DNA of 64,000 nucleotides from NCBI GenBank assembly GCA_002839765.1, contig PGYR01000010.1:1-64000 (forward strand), read 5' to 3'. The position numbers were made by a program, and so were the translations under genes. This DNA comes from Ignavibacteriae bacterium HGW-Ignavibacteriae-4. Lineage in GTDB: Bacteria; Bacteroidota; Ignavibacteria; Kapaibacteriales; UBA2268. Positions 36,728-44,355 of this stretch are shown here, piece by piece. How positions within the stretch are numbered: the first letter of the stretch is position 1; the number at the start of each line of letters is the position of its first letter. Below the pieces are notes generated by a model. It was not told the origin of the DNA. It made no database searches and saw nothing but the letters and a program-made list of their open reading frames with translations.

Positions 36728-37930
36728 TTATATTCTAAAATCTAAAGCTCTATTCAACTTAGGATCACCAATAGGAATATGATTTTTCTTATTCGCAGCT
36801 AAATAGTAGAATACTAATATTATGCCTGCTGAAAGAGAAATAAAACCTAATTCTATCCAACCAAATACAGGACCTTCTGTTCCACTCATTCTATTATAAG
36901 TAGGCATTACCAACCAATACATATCATATATATGTGCACCAATTATCCAAAATGAAGCAAGTTTCAATCTACTCGGTTTCATCTTTGAATTTCTATTTAA
37001 TAACAAACCAAAAGGAATTATAAATTTAATAAAAATTAGTGCAATAGATAAATATTCCCATCCATCTTTCATTCTTGGTAAAAACCAAAATGTTTCTTCA
37101 GGAACGTTAGCATACCAAATAAGCATATATTGCGAGAAAGCCATATACATCCAGAATGCAGTGAAAGCAAACATCAAACCACCCATACTGTAGTAATGGT
37201 TACCATTTATTTCTTTTAATAGGTTACCATTGCTTTTTAAACTAAGTGTAAGCAATGTAAGTACAGCCATAGCAGTAGCAAAAGTACCGGCAAAATAGTA
37301 AACACCAAATATTGTAGAGAACCAATGTGGTTCTAAACTCATAGCATAATCAATTGCAACCATTGTAATACTGATAGCAAATATTGGCATAAATGCCGCA
37401 GAAATCAATGCATTAATCTTCGTAGTCTTATTACTTTTAGTAGTATCTTGTTTTGTTGAGTTTCTTAAATAAGTGAATAGAAAGAAAGTCATTACTAAAA
37501 ATATACCTATAGAACGTGCATAAAAGAATTCTGTATTCAAATATGGTGATTTCTGATATAGAATAGGGTCATTCATTACTACATGAGTATGAGTCCACTC
37601 GAAAATATCATGCATATTTAATAATATTGGTAAAGCAAGTAAAGGAGTAGCTAAAAATATAAAACCTTGATGCTCAGCAATTCTTCTGAATGGAACACTC
37701 CATACAGCTCCGGCAATATGTTCTAGAGCAACTAAAAATATTGCCCCCATACCAACACTTACTATAAGTAGCAATGATATTATATTATTAAATGAAGCTC
37801 TAATTGGATCTAATTCGTATGCAAAAAAGGCTGCAACAATACCAATTACTAGTAACGGTAATCCAAATGTAAGGATACTTTTAGGTAAATCTTTTCTAGT
37901 ATAATTTATTTGAGTTTCGTGGTTGCTCAT
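36728..37930 (-). CDS. actF: Alternative complex III subunit ActF
   Basis: A 400-residue quinol:cytochrome c oxidoreductase membrane subunit with about ten helices. It is related to ActC/NrfD but of the ActF type: EHIAGAVWSVPFRRIAE near 70, SLEPHWFSTIFGVYYFAG near 195 and AFSQYMLIWYANVPEE near 262. ACIII oxidises menaquinol and reduces cytochrome c. ATG 37930 overlaps the actDE stop as ATGA, with a GAGGAGG ribosome-binding site seven bases upstream, so the two are strongly coupled. Confidence 0.93.
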   Translation of the reverse strand: MSNHETQINYTRKDLPKSILTFGLPLLVIGIVAAFFAYELDPIRASFNNIISLLLIVSVGMGAIFLVALEHIAGAVWSVPFRRIAEHQGFIFLATPLLALPILLNMHDIFEWTHTHVVMNDPILYQKSPYLNTEFFYARSIGIFLVMTFFLFTYLRNSTKQDTTKSNKTTKINALISAAFMPIFAISITMVAIDYAMSLEPHWFSTIFGVYYFAGTFATAMAVLTLLTLSLKSNGNLLKEINGNHYYSMGGLMFAFTAFWMYMAFSQYMLIWYANVPEETFWFLPRMKDGWEYLSIALIFIKFIIPFGLLLNRNSKMKPSRLKLASFWIIGAHIYDMYWLVMPTYNRMSGTEGPVFGWIELGFISLSAGIILVFYYLAANKKNHIPIGDPKLNRALDFRI

Positions 37931-39060
37931 TGCATATCCTCCTCTTTTGCGTCTAAAGCTCTTTGCAATGTTCTAACATAATTTACTATTGCCCATCTTT
38001 CTTTTCTTGTAACTGTTTTCTTGTAACCAGGCATTACGTTTTGTCCTTCAGTGATAACGTGATAAATTCTTCCATCAGTCCAAGATAATAATTTGTCTGA
38101 ATGTAATGTTGGACCATTAGGGAACTGACCTCGAAGTCTAGAATCACCCATAGCTAAATCACCATGACAAGGACTACAAAATGTAAGAAACTTTCTTTTT
38201 CCAAGTGCAATATTTTCTTCATCAGCAACAAAAGGGTTAACTAGATTATCTGAAGCACCGTCTGGATCACCAACATAAAGGTATGGCATAAAGCCTCTTG
38301 CTACGGTACCTTCTACTGGAACTCTCGAACTAATTCCATTTTTGAAAAAATCAGAATGATCCTGAGCCGTAACTTTATGTTGCAATAACATCCAATCAAA
38401 TGGTGGAAGATATAATGCTTTATTCATGTGTAAGTAAACACTTATTGACGTGAACCCAGCGATTAAAAACATTCCAATCACAAATTTTGAGTCTAAAATT
38501 CTATGTTTAGTATTAACTTCCTCTTCATCAAAATATATTTCATCAATTTGATAAGCTCCAATTGAAGAAAGAAATGCTTTCACTCCTTCTATATCAAACT
38601 TTGGATCGATAGCTTCTATATTAACACCGAATCTATCAGAAGAAACCGCTTTCATATATCCACTGTCATGAATAGGATGAGCATTATTTGGAAATTTGAA
38701 ATAGAAAATTAACATTACAGCTACTGTTAATACAGCACCCGTTAAAACTGTAATCTCAAACATAATAGGTACAAAAGCTGGTAATGGAAATAATGGCTTA
38801 CCTCCAATTACTTGAGGATAATCAATATTATATACCCAGTACATAAAGAATAACATTAGTGACATACAAGTCAAACCAATAGCTATTGTATAGTAACCCA
38901 TTTTTGATGGTTTCAATCTCATCGCACCATCAAGTCCGTGGACTGGATAAGGTGTATTTACATCATATTTTTCGTACCCAGCATCAGCTACTTTAGCTGC
39001 TGCATGCATAATTTCGTCTGGCGTTTTAAATAGCGCAGCTACTGAATATAATTTATTCAT
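37927..39060 (-). CDS. ActD-ActE fusion of alternative complex III
   Basis: A 377-residue protein joining two ACIII subunits. Residues 1 to about 185 are ActD (DUF3341: [32 protein letters not shown], helices near 55-77 and 98-121). After a third helix (about 193-212), residues 235-365 are ActE-like: [20 protein letters not shown], then CSPCH at 295-299 and likely axial Met343 in NVMPGY, and [12 protein letters not shown]. ActE is normally a separate lipoprotein cytochrome; here the helix replaces its lipid anchor. ATG 39075 is possible, but ATG 39060 has a perfect GGAGGTGA site. Confidence 0.88.
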
Positions 39061-40435
39061 GGTCTTCACCTCCATGATGAGATGGTTGTGCTCCTTCTGA
39101 AACTGCTTTTATTTCGGCAATTGCTATAGAAGGTAAGAATCTTGTGAATAGTAATGTCAAAGTAAAGAACAATCCAAAACTTCCTATTAATATTGCAAAG
39201 TCAGTAATTGTAGGTCTATAATATGCCCAACTTGAAGGTAAGAAGTCTCTAGATAGTGATGTAACAACAATCACAAATCTTTCAAACCACATACCCACGT
39301 TTACGAATATTGCTATTATAAACATTGGTACTATACTAGTTCTAATTTTCCTAATCCAGAATAACTGTGGAATGAATACGTTACAACTAAACATAGTCCA
39401 ATAAGCCCAAGAATAAGGACCAAATGCTCTATTGACAAATGTAAAGTATTCTGGTTGACTTCCTGAGTACCATGCTATGAAGAATTCCATAGAATAAGCG
39501 TAACCAACCATAGTTCCAGTTAACAATATAATCTTGTTCATCGTCTCTAGTGTTTTAATCGGAATCAAATCATCCATATCAAACACTTTTCTAATTACAA
39601 TCAATGAGTTCTGAACCATCGCAAATCCTGAGAAAATCGCACCTGCAACAAAGTAAGGTGGGAAGATTGTTGTATGCCACCCAGGAAGGATAGATACAGC
39701 AAAGTCAAAAGATACAATAGTGTGAACAGATAGTACAAGTGGAGTTGCAAGACCAGCAAGTATCAAATAAGTCATTTCATAATGTTGCCAATGTCTATTT
39801 GAAAATCTCCAACCTAAACTAAATATAGAATAAATTACTTTTTTTATTCTTCCAGTTGCTCTGTCTCTAAGTACCGCGAAATCAGGTATTAGACCTACAT
39901 ACCAAAAGACTAATGATACTGTAAAGTATGTAGAGACAGCAAACACGTCCCAAAGTAATGGCGAATTAAAATTCACCCACAAACCGTGCTGATTAGGATA
40001 AGGAAGCAAATAAACGGCTGCTACCCATGGACGACCTGTATGTATAATTGGAAATATTAATGCGGTAATTACGGCAAAAATGGTCATTGCTTCCGCAAAA
40101 CGAGCAATTCCGTTTCTCCATCTTTGTCTCAAAAGGAATAAGATTGCAGAAATCAATGTTCCAGCATGTCCAATACCTACCCAAAATACGAAGTTTACAA
40201 TAGGCATTGCCCAACCTACAGGATTATTATTACCCCATAGACCAGTACCATAATAAAATGATAATGCAATCCCAATTGCTCCTATCAATAGCATAGTGGA
40301 TGTGATTCCAATTGCTATGAAAAATTTCATATTTGGTATTCTATCTAAAGGGGCGATGATTAAATCATCTATCTCTTTGAGAGACCTATTCCCTTTGACA
40401 TTTACTTCATTTTTTGTATAATCAATGGTGCTCAC
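39053..40435 (-). CDS. actC: Alternative complex III subunit ActC (NrfD-like)
   Basis: A 460-residue NrfD/PsrC-like membrane protein with about ten helices, thought to form the quinol-binding module with ActB. Typical blocks are [17 protein letters not shown] near 40, [20 protein letters not shown] near 82, and [23 protein letters not shown] near 340. The last residues are His/Glu-rich. The start is GTG 40435, with GGGAG six bases upstream; it overlaps actB by 14 bp and actDE by 8 bp. Confidence 0.94.
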
Positions 40436-43400
40436 TCTTCACTCCCAATGAATCTGAATTCCGTAATTTTGCTAAATATGTTACATTCGGTTTAACATTT
40501 AAGTAATCTAATACATGGTAACCAAGATTGTGTTCTCTCATCATAGCTACTCTTGAATCTTTGTCATTTGCATTTCCAAATTCAATAGCATTAGCTGGAC
40601 AAGCATCTTGACACGCTGTTGTTACATCAGATCCTTTTAATGTTCTTCCATCTTCTTTTGCATTTTGTCTTGCTTGTGATATTCTTTGTACACAGAAAGT
40701 ACATTTTTCCATAACCCCTCTTGCACGTATAGTAACTTCTGGGTTCATCATTATCTTAGTTGATTCTGTTTTGTAATGACCGTTTGCAAGATTATCCCTA
40801 AAGTCAAAGAAATTAAATCTTCTTACTTTGTAAGGACAGTTGTTACCACAATAACGAGTACCAACACAACGGTTGTAAACCATTTGGTTAAGTCCGTCTT
40901 TACTGTGAGTAGTTGCAACTACTGGACAAACGTTCTCACAAGGAGCATTATCACAATGTTGGCAAAGCATAGGTTGATTACTCATGATAGGGTCTTCAGG
41001 TGAACCCTCAAAGTATCTATCAATTCTAATCCAACCCATTTCACGACCAACGCCAACTTCTTCTTTACCTACAACAGGTATATTATTTTCTACGTAACAA
41101 GCAATACTACAAGCGTTACAACCGATACATTTATTCATATCGATTGACATAGCCCATTTCATATTGTTGTATTCAAAATCTTTAGTTATACTAAATACAT
41201 CGTGTTCATGTTCTTTTAATATTTTCGGATTTTTAATATAATTAGCAACTGTTGTCTCTTGGATGATGCTTCTAGCACGAGCGAATGTCTCGCCACCACC
41301 AGTAACTTCACCTTCAGCATTCTTTCTGACTTCAGTTATTAAGAACTCGTCATCTAAAGCATGGTGCTCTTGAGTTGCAACTAATTCATATTTATTACCA
41401 GTTGGTTTTACAGTAGCTCCAGTATAAATCCATTTTGATAAGCCTTTGCTTGTCATAAATGGAGTTACATCGAATCCAACTCCGTTTCCAATTGCTCCAC
41501 TATTTGTTCTGCCATAACCCAAATCAACAGCAATAACTTTCTCAGCCATACCTGGTTGGATTAATACAGGCAAATCAATTGCTTTACCATTAAGTGCAAC
41601 TTCAATCATATCACCAATTTCTACATTCAATTCTTTTGCTGTAGCTGGTGATATCATAGCACAATTATCCCAAGTGATTTTAGTTATTGGGTGAGCAGAT
41701 TCTTGTAAGAATCCATTACCCGCATATCTACCATCTCTGATAAAATAATTTTCTTGTAGGATTACGCTATAATTAGATTTGTTAGTTGGTTTGATTCCAG
41801 ATACTGAACTTGAGTTTACTTCTGTTGAAACAATAGATGTTTCGTTGAAAGTAGTAACTCCGTCATGTAAAGTAGCAAACCAAAATTCTTTGAAAGGAAC
41901 AGATCTATTTAATGATGGGTAAATATTTGTTTCCCAATTACTTTGTAGATATTTGTGATAAATATCCTCAGAATAATTCTCTCCACCATTCATCCAATTA
42001 AGTAATATTGCTTCTCTTTGTCTAGTATCGTATAGAGGTGCTATAACCGGTTGTTGAGTTGAGATAACACCAGTTCTTATTTTAGCATCTCCCCATGATT
42101 CTATATCATGATTGATACCAAGAACATAATTACTATTATTTGAAGTTTCATTTTCAAATTCAGATAATGAAACAACTGTTTTTACTTTCTTTAAATTATC
42201 AGCTGTAAAATGGTATGGTAGATGATAAGTTGGGTTAATATCAATATTAATCAATACACCTACATTACCAGATTTTACATTATTAGCTAATGTAGCTATT
42301 TCGTCATCAGACGATAAACTTACAGCATTAAAGTTAGACTCGCTTTTTCTGTAAAGCTCACTTGCACCAATCAAATCGTTTAAGTAATTGATTGCAACAT
42401 GTAAATCTACAGGTAATTGTTTACCACCAATTACGATTGCTTTACCTCGATTGCTTTCCAAATCACTAAGTAATTTAGATGCAGCTTCGTGTTTCCATTT
42501 ATTTTCTTTTGCTAATGACTCTAGTGATTTGAAACCAGACATAGTTGGTTTACCTTGCTTAGATGCAAAGTGATTAACTAATGATGCAACAACATCTAAG
42601 TAGTTTTCTGGAGTTAGTCGAAGTCTATAATCAGAATTAGAGCCAGTTAAAGTATAAGATCCTTCAACTTGGTAGAACCTGCTATAACTAGTAGGATTTT
42701 CAAAATCTCTGTTTGTAGTAAATTGTCTTATGTTTTCATTAACATTGCCATCAGTACCTAAGAAGTCTGAATCGATTGACAAAATAACAGCGGCTTTATC
42801 CAAATCTATTAGAGGGTAATTATTTCCACCAGTTGATTTCTTCCATGCTATTTGCTTATTATTATCGTTGAATAATTCGTAACTATATACCTTAGTCGTT
42901 GGGTATTTTACTTTAAAATCTTCAATCAATTTAGCATAAGTTGGAGAAACAATTTTCCCAGTAAAAATTGCAATTTCTTTTCCAGAGCTAGAAGCAGAGT
43001 TAAGAGATTGAATAATCTCTTTATCGATAACTTTCCAATCCGAATCAACAAGCTTTGAACCTTGAATTTTTCTAGGTCTTTGTAATCGTCCAGGGTCATA
43101 CATATCTAATATTCTGGCAATACCATTAGCATCTAATTTACCTTTTGAAATCGGATGTTGAGGATTACCTTCTATTAGTATAGGTCTGCCTTCTCTTGCC
43201 TTTACTAAAATCCCTTGTCCAGAACCATCGCTAGTAAGTGTAGAAGCATAGAAATTAGCTATACCTGGTATTACTTCTTCTGGTTTAACTGCGTAGGGTA
43301 CTATCTCACCTTTATCTCGGTAATCGGTACAAGCAGCCATAACCATAGCTGATGAAGCAGACATAAGAGCCATGAACTTTCTTCTAGATACTTTTGATTT

Positions 43401-43577
43401 CGACCCAATGTCGAAATTCTCAGCACCTTCAGCAAATTCATTTGCTTTTACTTTTAATTGATTATCAGTGCTAGTATTGTTATACTCATCTAAGCTTCTC
43501 CAGTGTGAGGGCTTCGATTCGGACTTAACAACTGGTAAATCAATTTGATTTTTATTTTTATCCACTGAGTTATTCAT
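40422..43577 (-). CDS. actB: Alternative complex III subunit ActB (fused molybdopterin-like and Fe-S protein)
   Basis: A 1051-residue periplasmic subunit. An internal twin-arginine signal [21 protein letters not shown] (Arg65-Arg66, possible lipid-anchored Cys83) follows about 60 cytosolic residues, the Tat-variant arrangement of this family. Residues about 90-790 are a molybdopterin-oxidoreductase-like domain; the ferredoxin domain (about 800-1040) has four cysteine clusters starting [35 protein letters not shown] and CTFCVQR...CQDAC. B1 and B2 are fused, as in most ACIII. ATG 43577. Confidence 0.95.
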
Positions 43578-43582
43578 TTAGC

Positions 43583-43768
43583 TTAACCCTTTTTTGTTCT
43601 TTTAACAGATTGTGGGTGAATTTTTACTTCTAATTTAGAGTTATCTTTGTATGTATTATCAGCGATAACATTGGCAATCATATTCTTAGGCGATGCCAAT
43701 GAAGTAAGAGTGACGCCAACGGCACCAGCACCAAACAACTTAAAGAATTTTCTTTTATTTGTATTCAT
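43583..43768 (-). CDS. Small protein with Tat-signal-like N-terminus between actA and actB
   Basis: A 61-residue protein, positively charged overall. MNTNKRKFFKLFGAGAVGVTLTSLASP resembles a twin-arginine signal with a Lys-Arg pair (K-R-K-F-F-K) in place of Arg-Arg. A short polar tail of about 30 residues ends in HPQSVKRTKKG. The frame is open to TTG 43780, but ATG 43768 has a TTTGGA site about 10 nt upstream. It fits between actA (14 bp gap) and actB (5 bp gap). It recalls the small Tat-target proteins encoded beside formate dehydrogenase genes. Function unknown; an assembly role is a guess. Confidence 0.65.
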   Translation of the reverse strand: MNTNKRKFFKLFGAGAVGVTLTSLASPKNMIANVIADNTYKDNSKLEVKIHPQSVKRTKKG

Positions 43769-43782
43769 GATTTTTTCCAAAA

Positions 43783-44355
43783 TTATCTATGACAAGAACT
43801 ACAATCTTCAGGACCTTTTTTCACTTTATCAGCCAAGTAAGGCATTTTCTCATGTGGAGCTCTATGGCAACTCAAACAATTTGCCATATTGAAAGCATGA
43901 ACTTGCTCTATTTTATCCATAGATGCAACATCACCATGGCAAGAAGCACATTCAATATCAGCATTTATATGAGCACTATGATTGAAATAAGCATATTCCG
44001 GCACTTGGTGAACCCTCTTCCAAGGAATAGCTTCACCAGATTCGTAGTATTTTGTTAATTTCTTGATTTCAGGCTTGTCAGTTCTCGCCATAGTATGACA
44101 GTTCATACAAGTACTGGCTTGAGGAACAACCGCGTGACGCGATTTTTCTACACCAACGTGGCAATATTGACAATCAATCGCCATTTCCCCTGCATGTAGT
44201 TTATGCGAGAAGTTAATTGGCTGATCAGGTTTGTACCCAACACCATCTCGTTCAGAACGAGATACGTAGAATGTGATTGCGTACGAGATAAGAATTACCA
44301 TTATAGTTATTGGTAATCTGACTCTTAGTCCGTAGTCCAGAACTGATTTTTTCAC
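43783..44355 (-). CDS. actA: Alternative complex III subunit ActA, pentahaem cytochrome c
   Basis: A 190-residue periplasmic cytochrome with one N-terminal helix (about 13-30) and five haem-binding motifs: CQYCH (62-66), CMNCH (83-87), CASCH (136-140), CLSCH (160-164) and CSSCH (185-189). The five-haem count and first position in the cluster define ActA. GTG 44355 has AGGA five bases upstream. The 237-bp AT-rich gap behind it probably holds the operon promoter. TAGATTTG on the minus strand at 44588-44595 fits the -7 box but lacks a -33 partner. Confidence 0.95.
   Translation of the reverse strand: MKKSVLDYGLRVRLPITIMVILISYAITFYVSRSERDGVGYKPDQPINFSHKLHAGEMAIDCQYCHVGVEKSRHAVVPQASTCMNCHTMARTDKPEIKKLTKYYESGEAIPWKRVHQVPEYAYFNHSAHINADIECASCHGDVASMDKIEQVHAFNMANCLSCHRAPHEKMPYLADKVKKGPEDCSSCHR

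Follow-up and report, generated by a model that had tools for sequence, protein, structure and literature searches.

In many bacteria, the cytochrome bc1 complex is replaced by alternative complex III (ACIII), the subunit list of which derives from a few structures. The structure paper on Rhodothermus marinus ACIII reports that density and mass spectrometry revealed an additional periplasmic component, ActH (Rmar_1979), and describes a further periplasmic density that it leaves unassigned, so that ACIII components peculiar to certain lineages have a precedent (PMC5928083). The same source describes ActG, another ACIII protein, small and with a single predicted transmembrane helix, which some act clusters lack (PMC5928083). 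As to Tat export, redox enzyme maturation proteins of the TorD and NapD types are small partners of Tat-exported redox enzymes, and their genes are adjacent. According to the available excerpt of the relevant literature, known Tat chaperones are cytoplasmic and bind the signal of another protein (PMC4148689). Finally, the family TIGR02811 (formate_TAT) groups proteins of about 60-70 amino acids made of a Tat signal and a short tail, named for their place beside a molybdopterin-type enzyme.

The locus considered here lies in a window of 64,000 nucleotides, that is, the whole stretch of DNA analysed, from Ignavibacteriae bacterium HGW-Ignavibacteriae-4. On the minus strand, the frame at 43583-43768 encodes a small Tat-signal-like protein of 61 amino acids plus a stop, kept in relatives, the full translation of which is MNTNKRKFFKLFGAGAVGVTLTSLASPKNMIANVIADNTYKDNSKLEVKIHPQSVKRTKKG. 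This product is the subject of the study and is given the working name X; the window's own genome carries one copy. Its neighbours are genuine ACIII genes (ActA, ActB, ActC), all on the minus strand. Upstream, actA (43783-44355) encodes a pentahaem cytochrome c with a short haem4-haem5 linker. Downstream, actB (40422-43577) encodes the Tat-exported iron-sulfur subunit with the Tat lipobox SRRKF...C. In the PDB, the ActA and ActB sequences have matches to the A and B chains of known ACIII structures (6f0k, 6lod, 6btm, 8k9e). ActB was regarded as a Tat substrate in a preliminary description of this DNA; indeed, the window protein reaches 30.1 bits with the Tat domain TIGR04519 (cut-off 20.6), and ActB retains its own Tat signal in 139 of 140 relatives. 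Then come actC (39053-40435), of the NrfD family (PF03916), and a probable fused actDE (37927-39075, minus strand; 382 amino acids), named by analogy with Mros0042 in the accessible part of the Melioribacter roseus report (PMC3534657). In the product, ActD seems joined to a monohaem ActE-like domain with a single CXXCH motif (CSPCH) at residue 300, and the ActDE described in M. roseus has the same fused arrangement (PMC3534657). The name of the probable actF (36728-37930, minus strand), a membrane protein, is inferred from position and length only. Apparent oxidase genes, so named from a reading of the sequence, also lie downstream. A TatC gene is present in the window's genome.

The X frame is closely packed between its neighbours, as the preliminary description had it: 14 nt separate the actA stop from the X start and 5 nt the X end from the actB ATG. 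Across relatives, the median distance from the X stop to the first actB ATG is 1 nt. A ribosome-binding site of its own had also been attributed to X, which holds in a weaker form than claimed: the window shows just GGA ahead of AAAAATCATG, and a recognisable Shine-Dalgarno sequence precedes X in 52 of 140 relatives, versus 8.7% at random positions. At the other end, the last 3-4 codons of X overlap the ribosome-binding region of actB (window letters AAAAAAGGG) and hold its Shine-Dalgarno-like GGG. The conservation of residues 58-61 may thus act partly at the DNA level, by way of this overlap.

The X protein is under purifying selection. Using Nei-Gojobori counts with the Jukes-Cantor correction, a pooled dN/dS of 0.23 was obtained over 25 non-overlapping independent pairs, away from near-neutral evolution, one of the two outcomes that would have spoken against the preliminary description; the other, the lack of a conserved frame in close relatives, did not arise either. 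On the same pairs, the start together with the juxtamembrane part gave 0.15, the linker 0.36 and the tail 0.21. Inside the window's genus, values ranged from 0.18 to 0.45 over six pairs with few changes, which taken alone is weak evidence; the wider set of 25 pairs is not weak. Conservation at the same site in 159 genomes, together with the pooled dN/dS, rules out a chance frame, and X is confirmed as a real, conserved protein-coding sequence, far beyond chance. The antisense frame at 43647-43892 (plus strand) was rejected as a candidate, because each of the three named relatives carries stops in it.

The preliminary description had proposed to look for conserved short frames between actA and actB in related genomes. 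Such frames were found in 159 genomes of the class, 131 selected by their match to the X query and 28 by ActB. A single X sequence retrieves relatives in the window's family, and a 22-sequence profile (A2) retrieves full-length matches class-wide. In a retained set with one locus per genome, X lies between same-strand ActA and ActB homologues in 140 of 140 cases; 131 of these had been picked by X-query match and nine by ActB (seven of f1, plus G400 and G314). Eight weak loci with no ActA or ActB homologue had been dropped before this count (L017, L019, L020, L026, L027, L029, L030 and L059). Second copies (L034-L058, L100-L104 and L107) were left uncounted; the one exception was L052, taken to represent G025. 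To reduce the bias of this selection, 20 more genomes were opened, drawn chiefly from the list of high-scoring ActB, and X was present in 19 of the 19 that could be evaluated; G253 and G387, and also G148, were already X matches in an earlier profile search. Two loci at contig edges, L065 (G027) and L217 (G374), were not evaluable. The class and phylum genome sets are samples and all these searches were made within the phylum.

In the window's family, where every ActB locus was opened, ActB occurs in 38 of 54 genomes, and X accompanies it in 31 of the 37 that are evaluable, in degenerate form in G036. The six remaining loci (G003, G004, G005, G018, G038 and G040) have ACIII without X. These absences and the degenerate copy indicate that X is dispensable in some lineages. 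Genus g23 (L066-L069) looks like a case of X decay in progress: G036 (L066) has a damaged start with the tail kept, G037 (L067) a drifted tail, and G038 (L068) and G040 (L069) a gap of about 165 nt devoid of an X frame. In the 16 genomes of the family without ActB, no X match below E 1e-3 was among the matches listed in one search; a second search gave a match at E 6.1e-4 in one of them, G012, its place lying beyond the rows listed. In the nine other families of the order, where ActB occurs in 67 genomes, X was found in none of 26 opened loci, and no full-length small-frame match to the X profile was among the matches listed. Among 395 genomes sampled across the phylum, the matches listed outside the class were Tat-like starts, mostly in larger frames. 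Frame listing, as distinct from profile search, showed no X-like frame of at least 35 codons in 20 more actA-actB gaps belonging to other ACIII types (15 outside the class, five inside). A search for X in a plasmid collection gave one partial match at E 0.9. Genome G195 has two ACIII loci of differing type, L209 with X and L282 without.

Every X observed accompanies a single ActB clade, in which the haem4-haem5 linker of ActA is short. Among the loci listed, members of this clade, including its few losses, score at least 724 bits against the window ActB, and all others at most 673. At X-bearing loci, the linker between the fourth and fifth CXXCH motifs of ActA measures 19-30 residues in each of the 157 rows that contain five motifs or more (two rows had fewer); at the six loci of the window's family without X it measures 19-20 residues. 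The type found in the order's other families (f2-f10) has 70-114 residues (26 of 26), and the 20 other ACIII loci have 34-45 residues in 16 cases and 18 in four. Thus, X goes only with short haem4-haem5 linkers, and short linkers need no X, as shown by ten equally short-linkered ActA without it (six from the window's family, four others). In an ActA tree built from 191 rows (159 from X-bearing loci, 32 from loci lacking it), the loci lacking X cluster: its presence requires six changes versus 30.1 in label shuffles, none of 500 shuffles being as low; this tree comes from a quick search and contains long branches. The window's order houses two very different ACIII types, with a linker of 19-25 residues in the window's family and of 70-114 residues in the others. 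The ActB of the long-linker type is about 36-41% identical to the window ActB over full-length matches.

The anatomy of X was derived from a 140-row alignment. Residues 4-18 (43715-43759, minus strand) comprise the basic pair K5-R6, then K7-F8-F9 and the start of a Gly/Ala-rich hydrophobic stretch. The preliminary description saw in X little more than a Lys-Arg variant of the Tat signal and a basic tail. Both are present in the window; KR is just a local variant, found in eight of 140 sequences (RR in 76, RK in 50, others in six), and the tail is more than basic, as it holds the most conserved residues. A phenylalanine follows two residues after the pair (F8) in 129 of 140 sequences. The hydrophobic stretch has a median of 15 residues and is Gly-rich and weakly hydrophobic (mean Kyte-Doolittle 1.36). 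Just past it, residues 26-31 (SPKNMI; 43676-43693, minus strand) occupy the site of a conserved LPfKlF block, with proline in 111 of 139 sequences at residue 26 and lysine or arginine in 100 of 137 at residue 28. The window proline aligns one residue later than that of the family, and P.[KR] is found in 83 of 140 sequences. Beyond the putative anchor, X extends over a median of 29 residues with a net charge of +6, the linker ahead of the tail being variable. The most invariant part of X is this C-terminal tail, not the Tat-like start. In the window it covers residues 46-61 (LEVKIHPQSVKRTKKG; 43586-43633, minus strand), and its consensus is KVxI[HN]PxAVxR. Conservation reaches 126 of 140 for V/I48, 134 for H/N51, 116 for P52, 139 for A/S54, 140 for V/I55 and 139 for R57; the complete motif [HN]P.[AS][VI].R occurs in 109 sequences and [AS][VI].R in 138. 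Intact rows are 51-82 residues long. Cysteine occurs in one of 140 sequences and histidine exchanges with asparagine at residue 51; a role as a haem or metal ligand was rejected on these grounds.

AxA-like cleavage sites are found in just 20 of 140 sequences. This rarity, together with the LPfKlF block after the hydrophobic stretch, is best fitted by an uncleaved Tat signal-anchor bearing a short putative periplasmic tail. The lysine replacing the second arginine in 50 of 140 sequences weakens the Tat assignment. Matches to the Tat signal models TIGR01409 and PF10518 are weak, the best score with TIGR01409 among ten relatives being 16.5, against a cut-off of 16.7. An AlphaFold model built from four close sequences has low confidence (mean pLDDT 58, pTM 0.14).

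Considering these properties, we favour, with moderate confidence, the idea that X belongs to the Ignavibacteria-type ACIII as a small accessory component, whether as a subunit in stoichiometric amounts or as a peptide that would accompany the complex while it is assembled. In either role, part or assembly aid, it would probably be a small membrane-anchored protein that had previously been missed. In such a model, the Tat pathway would insert X next to ActA and ActB as a signal-anchor that escapes cleavage, in an N-in/C-out orientation. Its basic tail of about 29 residues, with a strand-like KVxI segment and the [HN]PxAVxR core, would dock on the periplasmic surface of ActA/ActB and either stabilise their junction or guide assembly. 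The docking site might lie in the region occupied, in other ACIII, by a longer loop between haems 4 and 5 of ActA. In a bolder and rather doubtful version, X would be an unnamed subunit of a distinct ACIII of the class, a single Tat-inserted helix whose AVxR tail replaces this loop in trans. If so, two ACIII lineages would have solved the same ActA/ActB junction, one by a loop and the other by a separate mini-protein. The existence of short-linker ActA without X makes the loop idea an association only.

Instead of remaining with the complex, X might act transiently, as an assembly or quality-control partner of ActB that would attach to ActB or ActA ahead of Tat export or in the course of it, travel along and then be released or degraded; we hold this to be unlikely. 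The X gene directly precedes actB, with a median of 1 nt from stop to ATG. In addition, RK occurs in X in 50 of 140 genomes and in ActB in 20 of 139, and never in both in the same genome, as if each pair required one good signal. However, the tree shows just some two changes involving the RK of ActB, which leaves this exclusivity with no statistical weight, and the absence of joint cases may be due to chance. Its use as evidence of joint export was rejected, with zero joint cases and too few independent changes. Moreover, the conserved juxtamembrane block is not obviously needed by a transient factor, and the known Tat chaperones, in the excerpt available, are cytoplasmic (PMC4148689). The preliminary description had also suggested that X might protect the ActB signal. 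Nothing specific points to this, ActB keeping a Tat signal of its own; the assembly role that it also proposed is possible.

Cleavage of the X signal, leaving a tail of some 30 residues as a free or ACIII-bound periplasmic peptide, would account for the tail alone being the most conserved part of X, and the window sequence has alanines past the hydrophobic region that could serve a peptidase. Yet the rarity of AxA-like sites (20 of 140) and the conservation of an LPfKlF block that cleavage would remove or reduce to a stub make this quite improbable. It may also be imagined that the Tat motif is not used and that X is an anchored peptide facing the cytoplasm, with its tail bound to the cytoplasmic side of ActC/ActF or to another partner. 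The strong basic character of this tail and the RK pair of 50 sequences would be in keeping with such a topology, against which stand the phenylalanine two residues past the pair in 129 of 140 sequences, the Gly-rich, weakly hydrophobic stretch and the weak matches to TIGR01409 and PF10518; we consider it very improbable. That X is a mere leader frame coupling the translation of actA and actB, its peptide having no job, is hardly credible in spite of the tight spacing on both sides and of the actB Shine-Dalgarno-like GGG within its last codons in the window, as selection at the amino-acid level peaks at residues 51-57, whose codons are too distant, on the 5′ side, to form part of the actB site, and as six loci of the window's family manage without X.

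No family of Pfam or NCBIfam takes X, and no match of the TorD or NapD type was found there. Unlike those proteins, which are cytoplasmic (PMC4148689, available excerpt), X has a signal-like start of its own. When the X profile was compared with the PDB, the best match was weak (E 0.017), several weak matches aligned Tat-like starts, and no ACIII entry was among the matches. Comparison of the X profile with ActA aligned nothing. A duplication of the ActB N-terminus was rejected as an origin of X, since profile comparison aligned just 24 columns of the Tat region (75.6% probability) and left the tail unaligned.

The preliminary description had likened X to the small Tat-target protein of formate dehydrogenase loci. 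This likeness turned out to be confined to the signal and the linker. The best score with TIGR02811 was 22 bits, against a cut-off of 48.45, the C-terminal part being unmatched and the best aligned stretch ending at position 50 of the 66 of the profile; membership was thus rejected. Weak matches were obtained for seven of 22 X members at E ≤ 1 (best E 0.01) and in a separate set of ten (best E 1.5e-4), and the window X was not listed at E ≤ 10. The neighbouring enzyme is also different, and the available portions of the literature on the small Tat protein of formate dehydrogenase yielded no functional precedent for X. As an extra, lineage-restricted ACIII component, X would resemble ActH; however, ActH is a larger, helical protein that includes a three-helix bundle and occurs in R. 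marinus and its close relatives (PMC5928083), whereas X is a peptide of 51-82 residues, putatively anchored and encoded in the actA-actB gap. X likewise recalls ActG in its size, and differs from it, as far as the available description goes, by its Tat-like start, its conserved tail and its actA-actB position.

If ACIII has a conserved additional part, which annotation readily overlooks when it is this small, the inventory of the complex in a whole class of environmental bacteria would have to be revised. X would also offer a tiny point of entry into the question of what holds the periplasmic ActA/ActB module together or how it is put together. The lineages of the structures behind the ACIII subunit list gave no X; the three published ACIII structures, in the texts as available, and the opened loci outside the class belong to lineages without X and therefore cannot show it. 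A prior description of X was sought in the accessible portions of PMC10100899, PMC5928083, PMC8552683, PMC5492636, PMC3534657, PMC5317091, PMC8076601, PMC11448878 and PMC13059093, and none was found there.

In the available part of the Melioribacter roseus genome report, actA and actB are Mros0045 and Mros0044, two consecutive numbers (PMC3534657). Genome G253, which we infer to be that of M. roseus, encodes an X of 53 residues between actA and actB, so that this organism would have an X without a gene number. A proteome study lists ActB, ActC and ActDE in its accessible section (PMC5492636), and a frame without a gene number was probably absent from the sequences searched. In the same genome (L214, G253:C1:47800-50200), the reading frame of actA is lost at a run of eight A, on the reverse strand near position 1160 and just ahead of the fifth haem motif; this motif is found in another frame. 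Whether a sequencing error or real slippage, this break would explain the 'four haem' ActA (Mros0045) given in the available text (PMC3534657), if G253 is M. roseus.
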